Shown: piece by piece, positions 46,204-56,922 of the stretch
Numbering within the stretch: the stretch's first letter is position 1
Layout of the letters: each line of letters opens with the position of its first letter
Assembly: GCF_012163145.1 (NCBI RefSeq)
Contig: NZ_JAAVTX010000004.1
Coordinates: forward strand, 186,001-250,000
DNA: 64,000 nucleotides
Direction of reading: 5' to 3'
From: Falsiroseomonas frigidaquae
GTDB lineage: Bacteria; Pseudomonadota; Alphaproteobacteria; Acetobacterales; Acetobacteraceae
Position numbers and translations under genes: made by a program
Notes under the pieces: model-generated
Told to the model about the DNA's origin: nothing
Seen by the model: only the letters and a program-made list of their open reading frames with translations
Database searches by the model: none

Positions 46204-46929
46204 ATGGATGAACTGACCTTCCACACCAGGCTGCACCAGCCCGGCAGCATCCTGGATGTGGGCGCGCATGACGGGCTGCTGACCCTGCCGCTGTCGCGCC
46301 TGCCCGGTGCGCGCATACTGGCCTTCGAGCCGCTGCCCAGCGCCTTCGCCCGGCTGGAAGCCGCGATCCGCGCCGAATACGGCAGCATCCCGCCGCATAT
46401 CGGGCTGCACCCCGTGGCGCTCGGCGCCGAAGCCGGGCGGCTGACCCTGTCCGTGCCGGTACTGGAGGGGGTGGCGCAGGAACAATGGGCCTCCACCGCC
46501 AAGACCTATGCCGGCTTCGGCTCCGTCACCGTGCTGCGGCATGAGGTGGCGGTGACCACCATCGATGCGCTGGACCTGCCCGACCTCCGGCATGTGAAGC
46601 TGGATGCCGAGGGCTTCGAGGAGGAGGTGCTGCAAGGCGCCCGCGCCACCCTGGCCCGCTGCCGCCCGGTGCTGAGCCTGGAGGTGGAGGAACGCCACCG
46701 CCCCGGCAGCACGCGCGACGTGCCGGCGCTGCTGGCGGGCCTCGGCTACGAGACCTGGTTCGCGCTGCATGGCGAATGGCAGCCGCACGCCGCCTTCGAC
46801 GCCGCGACGATGCAGGTGGCGTCGCCGGACCCGGCGGTCTTCGCCGCCAGCGATCCCTACGTCTTCACCTTCTTCGCCTGGCCGGCGGAACGCTCCGCCG
46901 CCATCCAGGCGGCGCTATCCTACGGCTGA
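46204..46929 (+). CDS. FkbM-family methyltransferase
   Basis: 241 residues. SILDVGAHDGLLTLPLSRLP is the SAM-binding motif I, AFEPLPSAFARL the acidic end of strand 2, and VKLDAEGFEEEVLQGA the FkbM-specific signature. FkbM proteins O-methylate hydroxyls of polyketides or sugars; with several glycosyltransferases in this window, a glycan substrate is plausible. The last 15 bases overlap the convergent epmA gene. The insert EWQPHAAFDAATMQVASPDP near the end is variable in the family. Confidence 0.88.
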   Translation: MDELTFHTRLHQPGSILDVGAHDGLLTLPLSRLPGARILAFEPLPSAFARLEAAIRAEYGSIPPHIGLHPVALGAEAGRLTLSVPVLEGVAQEQWASTAKTYAGFGSVTVLRHEVAVTTIDALDLPDLRHVKLDAEGFEEEVLQGARATLARCRPVLSLEVEERHRPGSTRDVPALLAGLGYETWFALHGEWQPHAAFDAATMQVASPDPAVFAASDPYVFTFFAWPAERSAAIQAALSYG

Positions 46930-48048
46930 CGGCGCCGCCAGCAGCTTCGGCGGCGGCGCCAGGGCAGTGGCCGCCGCGCGCGGGATGGCGGGCAGCCACA
47001 GCACATCCTCGATCTCCGTCGCGCCGCTGGCCAGCATCGCCAGCCGGTCGAAGCCGAGCGCGATGCCGGAGGCCGGCGGCATGCCCGCCTCCAGCGCCGC
47101 CAGGAAATCCTCGTCCACGTCCCAGCCTTCCTCGCCCGTCTCGGCGCGGCGCTGGGCCACGTCGCGCTCGAAGCGGGCGCGCTGTTCCACCGGGTCGGTC
47201 AGCTCCTCGAAGGCATTGGCGAGTTCCAGCCCGGCGGCGAACAGCTCGAACCGCAGGGCGACGCGGCCATCGCGCGGGTCGCGCCGGGCCAGCGCCGCCT
47301 GCGGGGCGGGCCAGTGGGTGAGGAAGGTGGCGCGGCCGCGGCCGATGGCGGGTTCGATGTAGCGCATCACCAGGCGGAAGAAGCCGTCTTCCCAGCCATC
47401 GCTCTCCGGCACATGCAGCCCGGCGCGGGCGGCATTGGCGCGCAGCTTCGCGGCATCGCCCTCTCCGGTCGCGGCATCGATGGTGCCGAGGATGTCCATG
47501 CCGCGGCAGTGGCGGCTGAAGGCCTCGGCCATGGTCAGGCGTTCGAAGGGCAGCGCGAAATCGGCCGTAACCTCCCCCTGGCCGACCAGGCCTGGGCAGA
47601 CGGAACGCAGCAGCAGCTCCGTCTCCTCCATCATCCCGGCCAGGTCCATGCCCGGCGCATACCATTCCAGCATGGTGAATTCGGGCGCGTGGTGCGGGCT
47701 GGCTTCCCCGTTCCGCCAGACGCGGGCGAGTTCGAAAACCTTCCCCGCGCCGCCCACCAGCAACCGCTTCAGCGCGAGTTCGGGCGAGGTCCGCAGCCAC
47801 AGCGTGCTGTCCTGGCCGATGCCGAGATGCGGGCGGTATTCGGTGGCGAAGCCACGCAGATGCACCTCCATCCCCGGGGCGGGAACCAGGCAGGGCGTCT
47901 CCACCTCCATATAGCCGCGCGCGGCGAAGAAATGGCGGGTGGCGGCCGTCAGCGCCGCGCGCCGGCGCAGGAAGGGCAGCCGGGCGGCCAGCCCTTCTCG
48001 GGTCCAGGCGCGTCGCGGGGCGGTGGCGGCGATCGGAGCCTCGGGCAT
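46915..48048 (-). CDS. epmA: EF-P beta-lysylation enzyme, lysyl-tRNA-synthetase-like
   Basis: 377 residues from ATG 48048; an upstream start would add 17 residues without a ribosome site. It is a class II aminoacyl-tRNA synthetase core lacking the anticodon-binding domain: motif 2 ARVWRNGEASPHHAPEFTMLEWY and motif 3 GIALGFDRLAMLASG (both given in part) are intact. Unlike LysRS, EpmA/PoxA uses beta-lysine to modify elongation factor P. It is divergent from epmB, 53 bases away, and efp lies 1.9 kb on, so the whole modification pathway except EpmC is present. Confidence 0.93.
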   Translation of the reverse strand: MPEAPIAATAPRRAWTREGLAARLPFLRRRAALTAATRHFFAARGYMEVETPCLVPAPGMEVHLRGFATEYRPHLGIGQDSTLWLRTSPELALKRLLVGGAGKVFELARVWRNGEASPHHAPEFTMLEWYAPGMDLAGMMEETELLLRSVCPGLVGQGEVTADFALPFERLTMAEAFSRHCRGMDILGTIDAATGEGDAAKLRANAARAGLHVPESDGWEDGFFRLVMRYIEPAIGRGRATFLTHWPAPQAALARRDPRDGRVALRFELFAAGLELANAFEELTDPVEQRARFERDVAQRRAETGEEGWDVDEDFLAALEAGMPPASGIALGFDRLAMLASGATEIEDVLWLPAIPRAAATALAPPPKLLAAPSAVG

Positions 48049-48101
48049 GGGCGCGTTCCCCCTTGTTGCGGCTGGGAGGTTGGGGTTTAGCAGGCCCAAC
48101 C

Positions 48102-49106
48102 ATGCCCCATCCCGCCGCCGCCCGAAACCTTTCCCGCACCCTGCGCGATACCGCTTCCCTGTCCGAGGCCGGGCTGCTGCCGCCTTCCGCCGACCTGGCG
48201 GGGCTGGAGGCGGTGCAGGCGCGCTATGCCATCGCGGTGACGCCGGCGATGGCCGCGCTGATCGACCCGGCCGACCCGCGCGACCCGATCGTGGCGCAAT
48301 ACATCCCCGACCCGGCGGAACTGGTCACCGCGCCGCATGAGATCGAGGATCCGACGGCGGATGCGCCCTTCACCCCGGTGCCCGGCGTGGTGCACCGCTA
48401 CCCCGACCGCGCGCTGCTGAAGCCGCTGCTCGCCTGCCCCGTCTATTGCCGCTTCTGCTTCAGGCGGGAGGTGGTGGGGCCGGATGGCGGGCTGCTGACG
48501 ACGGAACAGCTGGAAACCGCGATCGCTTGGTTCGAACGGACCCCGCAAGTGCGGGAGGTGATCCTGACCGGCGGCGACCCGCTGATGCTCAGCCCGCGCC
48601 GCCTGGCCTGGCTGCTGGAACGCCTGGCGGCCATTCCGCATATCGAGATTTTACGAATTCACTCGCGGGTTCCGGTGGCCGATCCGGCGCGGGTGAATGC
48701 GGCGCTGGCGGCGGCGCTGACGGTGGAGAAGCCGCTGTATCTGTGTGTCCACGCCAACCACGCGCGGGAATTTACGGCGGAGGCGATGGCCGCGCTGCGG
48801 CAGTTGACCGGGGCGGGGGTGGTGCTGCTCGGGCAGTCCGTGCTGCTGCGGGGGGTGAATGATAAGGCGGAGGCGCTGGAGGATCTGTTCCGGGCCATGC
48901 TGCGCGGGCGGGTGAAGCCGTATTACCTGCACCAGTTGGACCCGGCCCCGGGGACGGCGCGCTTCGAGGTGCCGCCGGAGGAAGGGCGGGCGCTGCTGGC
49001 GGCGCTGCGCTTCCGGGTGACGGGGCTGGCCTGGCCGACTTATGTGCAGGAACGGCCGAACGGCGGCGGGAAGGCGGTGGTGGGGCCGGTGTGGCGCGAT
49101 TCCTGA
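48102..49106 (+). CDS. epmB: EF-P-associated lysine 2,3-aminomutase
   Basis: 334 residues from ATG 48102. The radical SAM motif is CPVYCRFC (Cys112, 116, 119), followed by EVILTGGDPLMLSPRRL. The PLP lysine is in ERPNGGGKAVVG near the C-terminus. It converts alpha-lysine to (R)-beta-lysine for EpmA. The short C-terminus distinguishes it from catabolic lysine 2,3-aminomutases. Together with epmA and efp it defines a bacterial EF-P lysylation locus. Confidence 0.93.
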   Translation: MPHPAAARNLSRTLRDTASLSEAGLLPPSADLAGLEAVQARYAIAVTPAMAALIDPADPRDPIVAQYIPDPAELVTAPHEIEDPTADAPFTPVPGVVHRYPDRALLKPLLACPVYCRFCFRREVVGPDGGLLTTEQLETAIAWFERTPQVREVILTGGDPLMLSPRRLAWLLERLAAIPHIEILRIHSRVPVADPARVNAALAAALTVEKPLYLCVHANHAREFTAEAMAALRQLTGAGVVLLGQSVLLRGVNDKAEALEDLFRAMLRGRVKPYYLHQLDPAPGTARFEVPPEEGRALLAALRFRVTGLAWPTYVQERPNGGGKAVVGPVWRDS

Positions 49107-49145
49107 TTGCTGGACGTCGCGCCGAAGCCCATATGGTCATCTGAA

Positions 49146-49433
49146 ATGACCACCCAGGCCCGCCCGATGCCCAAGCTCATCAGCGCCACCGAGTTCAAGG
49201 CCACCTGCCTCGACATCCTCGACCGCGTCGGCTCGGGCGAGTGGGACCGGGTGGAGGTGACCAAGCGCGGCCGGGTCGTCGCCGTGCTGGTCCCACCGAC
49301 GCCCCCGGCCGCGGCCGTCGCCGGGCTGCACGGCTTCATGCGGGACAGCGTGGTGATCCCCGAGGGCCTCGACCTGACAGCCCCGATCGCCGACGAACAC
49401 TTCGCCGCCGCCGAGGGCAAGCTGCACGGATGA
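49146..49433 (+). CDS. Phd/YefM-type antitoxin
   Basis: 95 residues from ATG 49146 (ATG 49167 is an alternative giving MPKLISATEFKA). ISATEFKATCLDILDRVGSG and VTKRGRVVAVLVP are the standard Phd N-terminal DNA-binding fold. The C-terminal 35 residues (LDLTAPIADEHFAAAEGKL) would wrap the toxin. The stop overlaps the toxin start (ATGA). CCATATGG at 49129-49136, just upstream, could be the autoregulatory operator. It is only 39 bases after the epmB stop. Confidence 0.88.
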   Translation: MTTQARPMPKLISATEFKATCLDILDRVGSGEWDRVEVTKRGRVVAVLVPPTPPAAAVAGLHGFMRDSVVIPEGLDLTAPIADEHFAAAEGKLHG

Positions 49434-49861
49434 GCCGGGACGGCGTGCTGCTGGACACCTGCGCGGTGATCTGGCTGGCCACCGGCGCGCCGATGGCCGC
49501 CCCCGCCCTGGCCGCGATCCAGCAGGCGGGCAATGGCGCGGGCATCTTCGTCTCGCCGGTTTCCGCCTGGGAGATCGGCTTGCTGGCGCGGCCGCGTCCC
49601 TCTCGCGCTGCCGCCATGACCTTCCTGCCGGACCCGAAGACCTGGTTCGCCCGGTTGATGGCCGCCCCTGGCCTGCGCGAAGCGCCGCTTTCAGCGGGCG
49701 CGGCGGTCGATGCCTCCTGGCTGCCCGGCGAGTTGCATGGCGACCCCGGCGACCGCCTGATCATCGCCACCGCCCGCGACCGTGGCCTGCCCCTGGTCAC
49801 GCGCGACGGGCTGATTCTGGCCTATGGCCGGGCCGGGCACCTCGCCACCATCGCCTGCTGA
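49430..49861 (+). CDS. PIN-domain toxin (VapC-like)
   Basis: 143 residues. The acidic active site of the PIN RNase is complete: D9 (LLDTCAVIW), E48 (SAWEIG), D108 (GDPGDRLIIATA) and D126 (TRDGLIL). VapC toxins cleave tRNA or rRNA. It is translationally coupled to the Phd-type antitoxin. The pair sits between epmB and efp, both translation genes. The 72-base gap to efp (49862-49933) must hold the efp promoter unless efp is read through. Confidence 0.9.
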   Translation: MSRDGVLLDTCAVIWLATGAPMAAPALAAIQQAGNGAGIFVSPVSAWEIGLLARPRPSRAAAMTFLPDPKTWFARLMAAPGLREAPLSAGAAVDASWLPGELHGDPGDRLIIATARDRGLPLVTRDGLILAYGRAGHLATIAC

Positions 49862-49933
49862 AGGTTGCCCCTGGCCCTCCGCCGTTGTATCCGCGCCCCA
49901 CATTCCCCACCGCTCATTCAGGACTACCCCACC

Positions 49934-50503
49934 ATGGCGAAGATGCAGGCCAACCAGATGCGTGCCGGCATGGTCATCGAGTTCGAGGGCCAGCGCTACA
50001 CCATCATCCGCCAGAACATCATGATCCCGGGCAAGGGCAACGCGATCATCCAGGTGGACATGCGGAACATCAAGACCGGCGCCAAGAAGGACCAGCGCTG
50101 GCGCACGGCGGATACGGTCGAGCGGCTGATGACCGAGGACAAGGAGTTCACCTTCTCCTACGCCGAGGGCGACATGATCGTCCTGATGGACCCGGAGAAC
50201 TACGAGCAGACGCAGGTTCCGAAGGAAATCCTCGGCGACCGTTTGCCGTTTTTGGTCGAGAACATGACGGTCGGCGTGCGCCTGATCGAGGGTGAGCCCG
50301 TCGCCATGACGCTGCCGGAGCAGGTGACGCTGGAAGTGGTGGAAGCCGATCCGGTGGTGAAGGGCCAGACCGCCACCAGCAGCTACAAGCCCGCCATGCT
50401 GTCCAACGGCGTGAAGACCATGGTGCCGCCCTTCATCACGGTCGGCGAGAAGATCGTGGTGAAGACCGAAGACGGCAGCTACTACGAGCGTGCGAAGAGC
50501 TAA
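49934..50503 (+). CDS. efp: Translation elongation factor P
   Basis: 189 residues from ATG 49934; the frame is open upstream but would add 23 non-conserved residues. The KOW-like domain I carries MIPGKGNAI with the modifiable Lys at position 34, the same number as in E. coli, which is the form modified by EpmA rather than the Arg32 rhamnosylated type. The C-terminal signatures TLEVVEADPVVKGQTAT and VPPFITVGEKIVV are present. It relieves stalling at polyproline. A large inverted-repeat element follows. Confidence 0.96.
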   Translation: MAKMQANQMRAGMVIEFEGQRYTIIRQNIMIPGKGNAIIQVDMRNIKTGAKKDQRWRTADTVERLMTEDKEFTFSYAEGDMIVLMDPENYEQTQVPKEILGDRLPFLVENMTVGVRLIEGEPVAMTLPEQVTLEVVEADPVVKGQTATSSYKPAMLSNGVKTMVPPFITVGEKIVVKTEDGSYYERAKS

Positions 50504-51642: not shown

Positions 51643-52083
51643 ATGATGCGCCGCGCCCTCATCCCCGTCCTGCTCGTTCTGCTCGCCGCCCCGGTGGCGG
51701 CGGAACAGGGGTTGTCCGTGCGGGCCGAGGGCGGCTGGCGGCTGGGCTTCGCGCCCGGCGAATCCGCGCTGGATGCCGCAACCCGCGATGCGCTGGCGGG
51801 CCTCGCCCCCGGCCTCGCCGCCAACCTCGCCGCCCTGGCGCGCGGCCGCATCACGGTGGAGGCGCAGGCCAGCAGCCCGGCCGACGATGCCTCCCTCGCC
51901 CGCCGCCTGTCGCTCACGCGTGCCGCGACGGTGCGGGATGTGCTGGTGGCGGCGGGGGTGCCGGCGACGCGCATCGATATCCGCGCGCTGGGCCGGCGCG
52001 ATCCGCCGGTCGATATCGCGGAGATCCTTCCACCCGGCGTGCCGCGAGCCGATTCCGGCTCCGCCTCGCGGAATACGAGGTAG
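51643..52083 (+). CDS. Secreted OmpA-like protein
   Basis: 146 residues. The signal peptide RRALIPVLLVLLAAPVAAE ends near residue 21. The mature part contains LGFAPGESALDAATRDALAG and LARRLSLTRAATVRDVLVAAGVPATRIDIRALG in outline, which is the beta-alpha-beta core of an OmpA C-terminal domain; an Arg close to the usual peptidoglycan site is present. It is the first gene of a three-gene set with the MotA-like and MotB/OmpA-like proteins, 4 bases upstream of the former, so it may be an extra wall-contacting component of that complex. Confidence 0.72.
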   Translation: MMRRALIPVLLVLLAAPVAAEQGLSVRAEGGWRLGFAPGESALDAATRDALAGLAPGLAANLAALARGRITVEAQASSPADDASLARRLSLTRAATVRDVLVAAGVPATRIDIRALGRRDPPVDIAEILPPGVPRADSGSASRNTR

Positions 52084-52087
52084 CGGC

Positions 52088-53227
52088 ATGACCAGCCCGA
52101 CCGTCTTCCTCTGGCGCATGCTCGCCTTCCTCGCCGCGGTGGTGGTGCTGGTCGGGCTGCTGGTGGGCGAGTTGACCACCGCCTTCGCGGCCAACCCGAT
52201 GCTGAACGGCGTCATCGCACTGGTTCTGCTGCTGGGCATCGCCTGGAACATCCGCCAGGTGCTGGTGCTGACGCGGGAGGTCGAGTGGCTGGAGGCCTTC
52301 CGCAACCCCACCCCCGGCGCCCCCGCCCGCAAGCCGCCGCGCCTGCTGGCGGCGATGGCCAGCATGCTCGCCGGGCGGCGGTCGGAACGCCTGTCGCTGT
52401 CCGCCATGGCGATGCGCAGCGTGCTGGATGGCATCTCCTCCCGCCTCGATGAAAGCCGGGAACTGTCCCGCTACGCCACGGGCCTGCTGATCTTCCTTGG
52501 CCTGCTCGGCACCTTCTGGGGCCTGCTGATGACGATTGCCGCCGTGTCGGACGTGATCGGCGGCATGTCGGTCGGCTCGGGCGACATCAACGCGCTGTTC
52601 AACCAGTTGAAGCAGGGTCTGGCGCAGCCGCTGCGCGGCATGTCCATCGCCTTCTCCTCCTCCATGCTCGGCCTCGCCGGCGCGCTGGTGCTGGGCTTCC
52701 TCGACCTCACCGCCGGGCAGGCGCAGAACCGCTTCTACTCCGAGCTGGAAGACTGGCTGGCCGGCGCCACGCGGCTGTCCTCCGGCGCGCTGGGCAATGA
52801 AGGCGAGGGCTCGATGCCCGCCTATGTCCAGGCGCTGCTGGAGCAATCCGCCGAGAACATGGAGGAGCTGCAGCGCGCCATCGGCCGTGGCGAGGATGGC
52901 CGCGCGCAGTCGAACCAGGCGCTGATGACGCTGACGGAGCGGCTTTCCATCCTGGCGGACCAGATGCGCGCCAGCCAGGTGCTGATGACCCGCATGGCGG
53001 AAAGCCAGGCGCAGCTCGCCCCCACCCTGCAGCGCATGGCGGATGCCAATGCCCAGGGTGCGCTGGACGATGCCTCCCGCGGGCATATCCGCAACCAGGA
53101 GCTCTACCTCGCCCGCATCCTGGAGGAGATGACCCAGGGGCGGATGCAGGCCACCACGGAAATCCGCAACGAGATCAAGATCCTCGCCCGCACCATCGCG
53201 GCCCTGGCCGAAGAGCCGCCGCGGTGA
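52088..53227 (+). CDS. MotA/TolQ/ExbB-family ion-channel subunit
   Basis: 379 residues from ATG 52088. Transmembrane helices lie near 8-28, 38-60, 129-155 and 184-206. The family hallmark GLLGTFWGLLMTI (138-150) and the second hallmark GMSIAFSSSMLGLAGAL (184-200) are intact. After the last helix a 170-residue helical cytoplasmic tail, rich in Gln/Glu/Ala, extends to the C-terminus, longer than in ExbB or TolQ. It should form the pentameric proton or sodium channel around the next gene's product. It is neither TolQ nor ExbB by context, since no TonB or TolR follows. Confidence 0.87.
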   Translation: MTSPTVFLWRMLAFLAAVVVLVGLLVGELTTAFAANPMLNGVIALVLLLGIAWNIRQVLVLTREVEWLEAFRNPTPGAPARKPPRLLAAMASMLAGRRSERLSLSAMAMRSVLDGISSRLDESRELSRYATGLLIFLGLLGTFWGLLMTIAAVSDVIGGMSVGSGDINALFNQLKQGLAQPLRGMSIAFSSSMLGLAGALVLGFLDLTAGQAQNRFYSELEDWLAGATRLSSGALGNEGEGSMPAYVQALLEQSAENMEELQRAIGRGEDGRAQSNQALMTLTERLSILADQMRASQVLMTRMAESQAQLAPTLQRMADANAQGALDDASRGHIRNQELYLARILEEMTQGRMQATTEIRNEIKILARTIAALAEEPPR

Positions 53228-53248
53228 CGGCGCGGGCCGCCTAGCGAC

Positions 53249-56221
53249 ATGGCACTCGGCGGGCGGCGCAGGCGCGGCGGCGGCGGGCTGGATGCGTGGC
53301 CAGGCTATGTGGACGCGCTGTCCACGCTGCTCATGGTCATCATCTTCGTGCTGCTGGTCTTCGTGCTCGGCCAGGGGTTCCTGTCCGTCGCGCTGTCCTC
53401 GCGCGACCGGGCGCTGGACCGGCTGAACCGGCAGGTCGGTGAACTGTCCGAATTGCTGTCCCTGGAACGTGGCCAGGCGGAGGAATTGCGGCTCTCGCTC
53501 GACCGGCTGACCGATGACCTGCGCGCCGCCATCGTCGCCCGCGACACGGCGCTGGAGGGTCTGTCCGCGCTGCGCGAGGAACGCGACCGGCTGGTCGGCG
53601 AACGCGACGCGGCGCGTGGCGAACGCTCCCGCCTCTCCGCCCGCCTGGCGGACCTGGAAGTCTCGGCGCGGGACGGCACGGCCCGGATCGCGGAGCTGGA
53701 GGGCCGGCTGGCGGAGGCCCAGGCGCGCGTCGAGGCCGCCGGCGGCGACACCGCCCGCACCGTCCGCACCCTGACCGACGCGCAGCGCCTGCTGGCTGCC
53801 GAACGCGCGGCGCTGGAGGCGGTGCGGCGCGACCTGGCGACCTCGCGCGGCGAAGTGCAGGCGCTCGGCCGCGACCTGACGGCGGAACGCGACACGCTGG
53901 CGGCGACCGAGCGAAGCCTGCAGGAAACCCGCGCGGCGCGGGATGCGACGGCGCAGGAACTGGCGACGCGGCGGCAGGAAGCCGAGGCCCTGGCACGCGA
54001 CCTCGCCGCCGCGCGCGGCACGCTGGAACAGGCGCGCGCCCAGGCCCAGGCGCTGTCCCGCGACCTCGCCGGCGAACGCGCCGCCCGGGGTGCCACGGAA
54101 CGGGAGCTGGCCGAGGCCCGCGCCCTGTCGGCCGAGCAGCTCGAGGCCCGCCGGCAGGAGGCGGAGGCGCTGGCCCGCGACCTCGCCACCGCCCGCACCG
54201 CCCTCGACGTGGCGCGCCGTGACCTGGCCGAACTTGGCGAGGCGCGTGCGGCGACGGAACGCGAGCTGGCCGAGGTGCGCGCGCTGACCACGCAGCAGAT
54301 CGAGGCGAGGCGGCAGGAAGCCGAGGCGCTGGCACGCGAGCTGGCCGCCGCCCGGCAGACCCTGCAGGCGGCCCAGGCCCAGGCGGCGGCGCTGACCCGC
54401 GACCTCGCCAGCGAACGCACAGCCCGCGCCACGACGGCGGAGGAACTGGCGGCGCGCCAGCGGGAAGCCGCGGCGCTGGCCGCCGAACTCGCCCAGGCGC
54501 GCCAGAGCCTGGAAGCGGCCCGCCGCGATGTGGCGGCCTTGCGGGAGGAAGCGGCGCGGCTCGACCAGACCGTCACGGCGGATCGCGCCACCATCGAGGC
54601 GCGGCTGTCCGACATCGCCCGGCTCAGCAGCCAGATCCGTGGGCTGGAGGCGCTGCGCGACCAGCTCGAGCGCCAGGCCGAACAGGCGCTGGCCCGCGCC
54701 GAGGATGAATCCCGCCAGCGTGCCACCGCCGAGGCGGCGCGGCAGGAGGCGCTGGAACTGCTCGGCCAGGCCACAGCCCGCGCCACCCAGGCCGAACAGG
54801 GCCGCGCCGCCGCCGCGCAGCTTGCCGCCGAGGCCGGCCGCCGTGCGGCGGAGGAGGAACGGCGCCGCGCGGCTGCGGAAGCGCAGGCCGGCGAATATGG
54901 CCGCCTGTCCGAAAGCGCCCGCGTGCAGGTGGCGGTGCTGACCCGGCAGTTGGAGGCGCTGCGCCGCGAACTCTCCCGCGTTGCCACCGCGCTGGATGCG
55001 GCGGAGGATTCAGGGCGCGACAAGGACGCGCAGATCGTCGCCCTCGGCCAGCGGCTGAACGTGGCGCTGGCGGCGCGGGTCGAGGAATTGCAGCGCTACC
55101 GCTCCGACTTCTTCGGCCGGCTGCGCCAGGTGCTGGGTGACCGGCCGGAGGTCCGCATCGTCGGCGACCGCTTCGTCTTCCAGTCGGAAGTGCTGTTCCC
55201 GGTCGGCTCGGCGGACCTGTCCCCTGCCGGGCAGCAGCAGATCCGCGACATCGGCGGCGTGCTGCTGGACCTCGCCCGGCAATTCCCGAGCGACCTCGGC
55301 TGGATCCTGCGCGTCGACGGCCATGCAGACCGCAGCCCGATCCGTGCCGGCGGCCGCTTCGCCAGCAACTGGGAATTGTCTGCGGCACGCGCCATCGCCG
55401 TGGCGCGGCTGCTGATCGATGCCGGGTTGCCCTCCAACCGCGTCGCCGCCGTCGCCTTCGGCGATACGCAGCCGCTGGATGACAGCGACGCCCCGGACGC
55501 CCTGGCGCGCAACCGGCGGATCGAGCTGCGGCTGGAGCCCGCGCCCACCGGCGCCGCCCCCGCCCGCCCGGCCGGCGAGCTGCGCCGCATCCTGGGCGAG
55601 GTGACGGAGGCGCAGGCCTGCGCCCGCCTCGCCGTGGTCGAGACGGGCGGCGCGCCGCGCATCACCGGCCTCGCCCGGCGCGGCACGGAGGCCAGCCTGC
55701 GTAGCGCGCTGCAGGCCCGCGGCGCCCCGCCGGCGGCAATGGAGGTGCGCGGCTTCAGCGGCCCCTATTGCGAGGTGATCGAGGCGCTGCGCCAGGTGCC
55801 GCCCGCCAGCGGCCCGGCCGCGCTGCGGCTGGACCTGGTCGGCCGCGGGCCGCTGGTGCAGGGCACGCCGCTGCGGCTGGATCTCGCCGCGCCCAGTTGG
55901 GGCGGGCAGGTCGAACTGTATTATCTCTCGGCCAGCGGCAATGCCTATCGGCTGCAACAGCTTCCGCCGCAGGCGCCGGGCGCCCGTATCCGGCTTGGCG
56001 AGCCGCGGCCGGGCTGGCCGGGCTGGGTGGCGGATGCGCCCTTTGGCATGGATGTGGTGGTGGCCATTGCCAGCGACGGGCCGCTGTTCGCGACGCCCAG
56101 GCCGGAGTCGGAAGCACTGCCGGATTTCGCTGCGGCGCTGGGCAGCGCCGTGGAAGCGGCGCGCCGCGAGGGACGGCGCGTGGCGGTGCAGATGCTGGCG
56201 GTGGAGACGGTGGCGCGATGA
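53249..56221 (+). CDS. MotB/OmpA-like protein with very long coiled coil
   Basis: 990 residues. One transmembrane helix at about 23-45 is preceded by GYVDALSTLLMV, whose Asp22 matches the ion-carrying Asp of MotB/ExbD. Residues 50-640 are an almost uninterrupted Ala/Arg/Glu/Leu coiled coil with repeats of RRQEAEALARDLA starting near residues 241, 301 and 354. Residues 635-767 are an OmpA peptidoglycan-binding domain (VLFPVGSADLSPAGQQQI, DGHADRSPI, NRRIELRLE). The last 130 residues resemble DUF4384 (QVELYYLSASGNAYRL, APFGMDVVVAIAS). Topology predicts the coil is periplasmic. It probably converts ion flow into force on the cell wall; the function is unknown. Confidence 0.85.
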   Translation: MALGGRRRRGGGGLDAWPGYVDALSTLLMVIIFVLLVFVLGQGFLSVALSSRDRALDRLNRQVGELSELLSLERGQAEELRLSLDRLTDDLRAAIVARDTALEGLSALREERDRLVGERDAARGERSRLSARLADLEVSARDGTARIAELEGRLAEAQARVEAAGGDTARTVRTLTDAQRLLAAERAALEAVRRDLATSRGEVQALGRDLTAERDTLAATERSLQETRAARDATAQELATRRQEAEALARDLAAARGTLEQARAQAQALSRDLAGERAARGATERELAEARALSAEQLEARRQEAEALARDLATARTALDVARRDLAELGEARAATERELAEVRALTTQQIEARRQEAEALARELAAARQTLQAAQAQAAALTRDLASERTARATTAEELAARQREAAALAAELAQARQSLEAARRDVAALREEAARLDQTVTADRATIEARLSDIARLSSQIRGLEALRDQLERQAEQALARAEDESRQRATAEAARQEALELLGQATARATQAEQGRAAAAQLAAEAGRRAAEEERRRAAAEAQAGEYGRLSESARVQVAVLTRQLEALRRELSRVATALDAAEDSGRDKDAQIVALGQRLNVALAARVEELQRYRSDFFGRLRQVLGDRPEVRIVGDRFVFQSEVLFPVGSADLSPAGQQQIRDIGGVLLDLARQFPSDLGWILRVDGHADRSPIRAGGRFASNWELSAARAIAVARLLIDAGLPSNRVAAVAFGDTQPLDDSDAPDALARNRRIELRLEPAPTGAAPARPAGELRRILGEVTEAQACARLAVVETGGAPRITGLARRGTEASLRSALQARGAPPAAMEVRGFSGPYCEVIEALRQVPPASGPAALRLDLVGRGPLVQGTPLRLDLAAPSWGGQVELYYLSASGNAYRLQQLPPQAPGARIRLGEPRPGWPGWVADAPFGMDVVVAIASDGPLFATPRPESEALPDFAAALGSAVEAARREGRRVAVQMLAVETVAR

Positions 56222-56922
56222 CCCTGGCCGGCACCGTGCTGGGCATCGCCCGCTTCCCGGTGAAATCCATGGCCGGCGAATCGCTGCCGGAAGCGGAGCT
56301 GCGCTGGACCGGGCTGGCGGGGGACCGGCAATACGCCTTCGTGCAGCAGGGCCACCATGGCCGCTTCCCCTGGCTGACCGGGCGCGACCTGTCCGGGATG
56401 GTGCGCTACCGCCCGCGCTTCGTGACACCCGAGGACACACGCAACTCCGCCGTGCAGGTCGCGGCGCCGGATGGTGCGGATTTCGACCTGCGCGATCCGG
56501 CGCTGGCCGATCGGCTCTCGGCCGATTCCGGAAAGCCCTCCCAGCTGATCCAGATGGGCCGCGGCGTGTTCGATGCGATGCCGGTCTCCGTCATCACCAC
56601 GGCCAGCCTCGCGATGCTCGACAGCCTGCATGGCGCGGCACTGGATGCGCGGCGCTTCCGCATCAACATTCTGGTGGACAGCGACGCGCCGGATACCGAA
56701 TGGGCCGGGCGCATGCTGGAATTCGGCGGCGGCGCGCGGCTGCTGGTGGCGGACCCGGCACCGCGCTGCGCCATGGTCACCATCTGCCCGGATACGGCCC
56801 AGCGCGATGCCGGGGTGCTGCGCAGCGTGGCGCAGCATTTCGGCGGCAATCTCGGCATGTATGCCGCGGCCGCGCGGCTCGGCATGATCCGGGTCGGCGA
56901 TCCGGTCCGGTTGCTCGCCTGA
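56218..56922 (+). CDS. MOSC-domain protein
   Basis: 234 residues from the ATG overlapping the previous stop (ATGA). VLGIARFPVKSMAGESLPEA is the MOSC N-terminal beta-barrel start, DRQYAFVQ and DARRFRINILVD follow, and PRCAMVTICPDTAQRD carries the conserved Cys near residue 184. MOSC proteins handle molybdenum-cofactor sulfur or reduce N-hydroxylated substrates. Its coupling to the motor-like gene is close, but a shared function is not obvious. upp starts 26 bases downstream. Confidence 0.88.
   Translation: MTLAGTVLGIARFPVKSMAGESLPEAELRWTGLAGDRQYAFVQQGHHGRFPWLTGRDLSGMVRYRPRFVTPEDTRNSAVQVAAPDGADFDLRDPALADRLSADSGKPSQLIQMGRGVFDAMPVSVITTASLAMLDSLHGAALDARRFRINILVDSDAPDTEWAGRMLEFGGGARLLVADPAPRCAMVTICPDTAQRDAGVLRSVAQHFGGNLGMYAAAARLGMIRVGDPVRLLA

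Follow-up and report, generated by a model that had tools for sequence, protein, structure and literature searches.

How can a coiled coil that is far longer than the periplasm is wide be carried by a probably periplasmic protein? The question is raised by a three-gene operon of Falsiroseomonas frigidaquae (Acetobacteraceae), located on the forward strand at positions 51643..56221 of a 64,000-nucleotide stretch of DNA (the window; positions 186,001 to 250,000 of contig NZ_JAAVTX010000004.1, in an assembly of 6.08 Mb). The operon encodes an OmpA-like protein of 146 amino acids (aa) with an apparent Sec signal recognised by eye (51643..52083; Pfam OmpA 42.2 bits), a 379-aa channel subunit (A; 52088..53227) and a 990-aa partner subunit (B; 53249..56221), separated by gaps of 4 and 21 bases, respectively. 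A previous reading of the window made without database searches, hereafter the sequence-only reading, had proposed this arrangement, and an open reading frame (ORF) check of the window confirmed that all three genes are real and correctly placed; a mechanical channel ORF starting at 51773 was over-long, and the start at 52088 was used. Comparison of the partner with its orthologues revealed that the distance between the membrane Asp and the OmpA region varies from 140 to 752 residues and is mostly quantised in heptads. This relationship is new here and is referred to as the heptad lock.

The partner begins with a single membrane helix (residues 20-48; 53306..53392), its only one, in which the putative ion-carrying Asp22 (codon 53312-53314) follows GGRRRRGGGGLDAWPGYVD. 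Because residues 19-632 are free of Pro and show a hydrophobic period of 3.51, the subsequent coil of about 555 residues (roughly 50-603; 53396..55057) is real. A conserved coil end and linker (residues 604-644, ...RYRSDFFGRLR...GDRF; 55058..55180) leads to an OmpA peptidoglycan-binding domain (residues 649-756; 55193..55516; Pfam 60.8 bits, E=1.7e-16). The sequence-only reading had correctly recognised Asp22 and the OmpA domain, but the latter does not end the protein, being followed by a domain at residues 766-990 that had gone unmentioned. The straight length from Asp22 to Phe621 (599 residues at 0.1485 nm per residue) is about 89 nm, in agreement with the 88 nm calculated before.

To place this length in context, 258 loci were examined, with fragments from the window's own genome (L001-L004, L035-L042) and three tiny fetches excluded; 246 contained a complete partner (12 were dropped), 233 of these were unique and 231 also had a channel. 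The coil distance was measured from the membrane Asp, with the first Phe of the RSxFFG motif (FF), a conserved element, as its end point. Among the 231 unique proteins, its median was 262 residues, and the window partner has 599; some regions were picked partly for long frames and others from the window's own family, and the length distribution is therefore no fair sample. In straight form, members would span from about 21 nm (the shortest) to about 112 nm (the longest). In E. coli, the inner membrane and the wall are near 10 nm apart, so that no arm, not even the shortest, can stand upright; each must bend or run sideways. The expectation that the coil is too long for the periplasm, where it probably lies, is thus supported, whereas the idea that the length puzzle is special to the window partner fails, since every orthologue measured has at least 140 residues (~21 nm) between the Asp and the OmpA region.

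The lengths themselves mostly follow the heptad. The first set comprised 142 loci and 69 distinct lengths, of which 45 equalled 3 modulo 7, 13 equalled 0 and 5 equalled 6; moduli 3-6 and 8-11 were flat. Kinship was controlled with a FastTree tree (589 columns), from which 115 tip pairs with disjoint paths were drawn; 38 pairs were equal in length and 77 differed. The difference was a multiple of 7 in 46 of the 77 pairs (11 expected, p=4e-20), and 0 or +-3 modulo 7, as for a 3.5-residue repeat, in 69. No excess was found among the 77 pairs for moduli 2-6 and 8-13; modulus 14 was in excess (32/77), overlapping with 7. Within the 46 multiples of 7, 32 differences were multiples of 14, and 28 was the commonest single value (9 times). 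This test is independent of the biased choice of regions, and the measurement covers this one coiled-coil family with the channel C-terminal tail as control. On the same pairs, the tail gave multiples of 7 in only 6 of 55, and coil length was uncorrelated with tail length (rho 0.06, p=0.40).

The register of the coil was then described by a heptad hidden Markov model (HMM) of seven states, trained without labels. When trained on all coils, the model found no register break in 173 of the 231 and a total of 67 breaks in 58,509 residues, 60 of them stutters (a shift of 3 or 4), compared with 741 breaks in shuffled coils. The register at 40 residues into the coil and that at 61 residues before FF were identical in all 231 proteins, and both were likewise the same across 67 of 67 test proteins under a model trained on other loci. 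The last 60 residues depend on the training set: the all-coil model placed no break there, whereas models trained with ends trimmed or on Acetobacteraceae-level loci gave last-60-residue breaks of 122/188, 67/92 and 64/88, the Acetobacteraceae-only models placing the end shift about 16-20 residues before FF in the window and three other proteins. This end-region shift is reflected in the first held-out run, in which 0 of 67 proteins were break-free, and continuity is therefore claimed only to approximately residue 603. The longest break-free run comprised 724 residues under the all-loci models (L125), with one shift near its end under the Acetobacteraceae-only models. The longest coils, L125 and L126 (distances 752 and 724), belong to two genomes of another family and are break-free under all-loci models. 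For the window coil, the HMM located two stutters, near residues 297 and 345; a one-residue skip making its register odd had been considered and was rejected, as the two stutters explain the register.

Coils above 450 residues occur at 21 tips and require 10 parsimony changes on the tree, indicating that coil length changed repeatedly; a coil whose length is free is no ruler. Both ends keep their register over a fivefold length range, and hinges therefore seem to be rarely tolerated. Across the family, the 57,354 coil residues include 10 Pro and no Cys, and 221 of the 231 coils are Pro-free; this scarcity of Pro, together with the constant register, points to selection. A flexible tether would not need constancy of register at both ends, and the combination of unbroken register with free length speaks for an arm or shaft that is stiff and anchored in the wall, by a mechanism that we infer. 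A precedent for tolerated whole-heptad insertions in a periplasmic coil is provided by Lpp+14 and Lpp+21 (2 and 3 heptads), which, in the available text of PMC5736177, made the periplasm of E. coli 3 and 4 nm wider and left growth unimpaired. A periplasm width was also sought in the available text of an R. rubrum paper, where no number was found.

Residues outside the coil are also strongly conserved. The membrane-helix Asp, the Trp of WPG and the Phe at +11 are each present in 231 of 231 loci, so that Asp22, whose conservation the sequence-only reading had proposed to check, is invariant. At the coil end and linker, S619, F621, D640, R641 and F642 are each found in 231/231 and F622 in 229/231; in the OmpA domain, D694 and R714 are each found in 230/231 and presumably bind peptidoglycan, as in known OmpA/Pal domains. 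The 15 residues preceding WPG contain on average 3.63 K+R vs 1.06 D+E (231 loci), and a topology with the N-terminus inside and the C-terminus outside is predicted because of this positive N-terminus. The gene order is also conserved: the channel lies upstream of the partner on the same strand in 244 of the 246 loci with a complete partner, and of the 161 loci whose flank was long enough (it was too short in the other 70 of the 231), 148 have an OmpA-like ORF immediately before the channel, consistent with the three-gene order suggested earlier.

Assignment of the channel rests on ZorA profiles and on fold, because Pfam MotA_ExbB scores 15.7 bits, below its cut-off of 22.9; the proposed MotA/TolQ/ExbB-type identity thus stands on these grounds and not on Pfam. 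The ZorA1 PADLOC profile matches with E=5e-11, and Foldseek with the AlphaFold model (pLDDT 74.4) gives ZorA 8vvn as best match (E=1.1e-3), followed by TolQ/ExbB, suggesting that the modelled channel resembles ZorA/TolQ/ExbB/MotA; the NCBIfam ZorA model, however, scores 21.4, far below its cut-off of 100. A PDB sequence search with the channel returned two matches, both weak and unrelated. Helices of the model at residues 5-33, 37-72, 106-159 and 167-231 fit four membrane spans by eye. The TM3-TM4 region (residues 131-208; 52478..52711) carries the conserved motifs LGLLGTFxGL and FSSSxxGL, with G141, T142, G145, F189 and S192 at 100% and S190 at 98% of aligned letters (231 loci). The cytoplasmic helical tail (residues 209-379; 52712..53224), modelled as helices 245-322 and 328-374, is conserved in its distal part; R352 and R360 are invariant across the 41 sequences of set A3, and much of the tail is missing in 3 of the 12 sequences of set A1.

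The extra domain of the partner (residues 766-990, 225 residues; 55544..56218) gave 0 Pfam families and is 42% identical (E=5.9e-43) to the C-terminus of a 709-aa Ser/Thr kinase ORF of the same genome (638128-638796 of contig C15; L274), in which what looks like a membrane helix and then a linker rich in Pro lie ahead of it. All eight aligned copies retain two Cys. The domain is found in the window and in seven other distinct members of the genus (L043, from Falsiroseomonas stagni, which equals L257 and has its coil distance and tail; L255; L258-L261; L264), and elsewhere among the 246 loci at most 45 residues follow OmpA; in the same genus, L253, L254, L256, L262 and L263 have at most 20. Because the kinase copy lies on the apparent extracytoplasmic side, this predicted origin supports a periplasmic C-terminus of the partner. 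Overall, it looks like a sensor-like domain fused to a wall anchor, in a lineage with some of the longest coils.

The partner scores 449.7 bits against NCBIfam NF006543/PRK09039 'peptidoglycan -binding protein' (curated cut-off 305), with which it shares the order of membrane helix, coil and OmpA domain while having a far longer coil and the extra C-terminal domain. The model length is 350 vs 990 aa in the window, the surplus being the coil and the post-OmpA part; a length near 350 is not a curated criterion of this family, and membership of the 990-aa partner is not excluded by length. Of 289 genomes that represent the class in our sample, 185 encode a member of this protein family, and the motor locus is present in 201 of 220 genomes of the taxonomic family and 16 of 16 of the genus. 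Synteny was assessed on 80 named loci, which are the closest relatives found and say nothing on distant orders: in the 53 with more than 4 kb upstream, efp was present in 44 and suhB in 47 anywhere in the retrieved stretch, and on the same strand within 4.5 kb upstream of the channel in 43 and 46, respectively. PADLOC gave 0 matches at E<=0.01 for ten window neighbours, in line with the earlier statement that effector genes are missing. The motor locus looks like a housekeeping locus and not a defence island.

Comparison with known systems bears out, mainly by context, the previous suggestion that the operon is not a Zorya, Tol or flagellar stator system. Zorya ZorAB is the best fold match and likewise pairs a channel having a cytoplasmic helical tail with an OmpA-type B subunit; however, the motor locus lacks ZorC-H effectors among the ten neighbours, is near-universal, and is elongated in B, whereas ZorAB is elongated in A. 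Membership in Zorya was set aside on the NCBIfam ZorA score and the lack of a PADLOC match in these neighbours. Flagellar MotAB/PomAB share the Asp in the B membrane helix, the OmpA domain and a four-helix A subunit, but the motor has no adjacent flagellar genes and carries a long heptad coil in place of a short plug and linker; additionally, probable members occur in non-flagellated Komagataeibacter (available text of PMC6570709). TolQR/ExbBD appear to share the A-subunit fold, as modelled, but have three A membrane helices as opposed to the four seen by eye in the window channel, and their B subunits end in a small TolR/ExbD domain instead of OmpA.

The description of the operon as a new envelope machine was mostly wrong at the family level, since the partner belongs to an existing NCBIfam equivalog family that includes a probable member pair with published overexpression phenotypes; the heptad lock is the better finding. 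According to the available text of PMC6570709, the non-flagellated K. hansenii has adjacent genes termed motA (348 aa, 4 membrane helices predicted) and motB (321 aa, 1 membrane helix, OmpA). Two loci of one genus in our set (L229 and L232, genus g295) agree in gene adjacency, helix number and lengths, the partner having 321 aa from its only upstream Met and the channel 348 aa from a GTG before TRPTTY, with an Asp-to-FF distance of 157 vs 599 in the window. All four g295 genomes examined contain at least two cellulose synthase (CelA) matches over cut-off, as does Komagataeibacter. On this strong though indirect match by length, K. hansenii motA/motB are probable family members. Either gene, when overexpressed, made cells longer and colonies spread more, and the products tagged with GFP at the C-terminus were polar in short cells, whereas long cells showed them at both poles (available text of PMC6570709); joint overexpression approximately doubled cell length (available text of PMC6315621). 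These data point weakly to growth or division at the poles. No functional study of the partner family was found in the papers searched beyond this overexpression work; a search on 'PRK09039' surfaced a phage-genome and a blue-light study, and none of the searched terms occurred in the main text of an R. leguminosarum INSeq paper. Identity with the S. meliloti Rgs proteins was set aside, as MotA, MotB and OmpA occur 0 times in the main text of PMC7327166.

Combined, these results lead us to propose an ion-driven motor of the inner membrane, encoded on the chromosome and of MotAB/ZorAB type, with a stiff, sideways, wall-anchored arm, a reading that, taken as a whole, we give an even chance of being correct. 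The complex would probably be A5B2, by homology, and the B dimer would be a single parallel coiled coil, stiff and continuous, that connects the membrane helix with the OmpA domain. Upon leaving the channel, this arm would run sideways along the wall, as it must if it is longer than the periplasm, and would grip peptidoglycan tens of nm away. Ion flow past Asp22 would turn the A ring relative to B, with the wall-clamped arm absorbing the reaction torque and the conserved cytoplasmic A tail handing rotation on to a further partner where the envelope grows or divides. The length of the arm would be nearly neutral and hence drift, whereas torsional and bending continuity would not, such that mainly whole-heptad (or stutter) length changes would survive. 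A bolder extension, that this is a third ion-driven wall-anchored machine of Alphaproteobacteria beside the flagellar stator and Tol, whose register-locked rigid arm (21 to 112 nm, freely evolving) transmits torque along the wall and drives polar growth or division, is possible but remains rather doubtful in our estimation.

Several observations weigh against the proposed motor. The 5:2 stoichiometry and the rotation rest on homology, and the channel has no Foldseek match at E<=0.001. In the AlphaFold prediction of the partner monomer, which has low confidence (mean pLDDT 64.6; 22 sequences), the helix is broken at 194-208, 340-354 and 547, the first two being low-confidence gaps; the notion that the coil is broken is disfavoured by the heptad lock, yet retains these two gaps and the two stutters, and because the break at 340-354 coincides with a predicted stutter, the window coil may kink there. 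Eight of the 77 length differences agree with neither a 7- nor a 3.5-residue repeat. In the periplasm, ordinary GFP usually fails to fluoresce after Sec export, so the polar signal of C-terminal MotB-GFP is a warning on topology or on cleavage of the fusion, and the topology stays a prediction. The K. hansenii phenotype may be indirect, and overexpression of these motA/motB genes in E. coli changed nothing visible (available text of PMC6570709). Lastly, coil continuity could serve only to avoid misfolding, with no role in torque. This last point is the basis of the strongest competing explanation, a passive stiff tether or strut in which the coil joins the inner membrane and the wall while the channel only tensions or regulates it; a break in a long coil exposes hydrophobic residues, the lock and the scarcity of Pro would then need no torque, and OmpA domains are commonly passive anchors. 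The invariant membrane Asp and the invariant channel TM3 residues argue instead for ion-driven work, and we consider the strut a serious but distinctly less probable explanation. Free length with locked register would also be matched by a rotating drive shaft, in which A is held and B turns, the coil carrying torsion round bends to an end bound to the wall or outer membrane, given that torsion can be carried by a shaft of any length provided that it has no hinge. By analogy with MotB and ZorB, however, the wall-bound subunit is the fixed one, and OmpA binding to peptidoglycan would block turning, making the shaft improbable.

The lock might alternatively be mainly mutational, with 21-bp repeats recombining so that the coil gene grows and shrinks while its register is under little selection. 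Of 165 tandem-repeat arrays found by TRF (period >=15), 113 have periods that are multiples of 21, which also weighs against the proposed motor, as a mutational bias through 21-bp tandem duplication, seen in some coils, may contribute to the lock. As the sole source, DNA tandem repeats were rejected, the arrays being confined to 61 of the 231 coils and absent from 170; third-codon-position identity is only 0.395 at lags 7k vs 0.380 elsewhere, and selection is needed for the rarity of Pro and the constant register at both ends, so that a chiefly mutational lock is unlikely. A cytoplasmic coil, in an inverted topology acting like the ZorA tail, would better suit the coil length and the MotB-GFP signal. 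Set against this are the positive N-terminus before the helix, the conserved peptidoglycan-binding D and R, the two conserved Cys of the extra domain and its extracytoplasmic kinase copy, and we regard inversion as highly improbable. Very little probability is likewise given to a Zorya-like phage-defence motor whose effectors were lost or scattered: the closest channel profiles, the best Foldseek match and the ZorB3 PADLOC profile on the OmpA end of the partner (E=1.7e-25) all favour it, but the neighbours gave no PADLOC match, and the patchy, horizontally moved distribution typical of Zorya is not what was observed, as judged by presence throughout the genus and nearly all of the family in mostly conserved efp/suhB synteny.

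About two thirds of the sampled class genomes carry the proposed motor, which has barely been studied. The heptad lock turns a vague puzzle of an over-long arm into a sharp question, namely the effect of a whole-heptad as against a non-heptad change in length. The answer would say whether ion-driven motors work via long stiff arms in the wall, and could link the motor to polar growth.

In one further locus, from a Defluviicoccus metagenome-assembled genome (L104), the partner reads as two ORFs of 188 and 216 aa, stop to stop. Downstream of the operon, the ATG of a MOSC-domain gene (56218-56922) overlaps the TGA stop of the partner; among the 65 named loci with enough downstream flank, a MOSC gene follows in 0 and upp in 5. 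Beside the operon lies an EF-P cassette (46915-50503) comprising a lysyl-tRNA-synthetase-like gene and a radical SAM gene, which we take to be epmA-like and epmB-like, respectively, together with efp. Between the radical SAM gene and efp, a PhdYeFM-like antitoxin (sub-threshold) and a PIN-domain toxin are encoded at 49155-49858, and a related pair was detected in one of the 80 named loci (L109).

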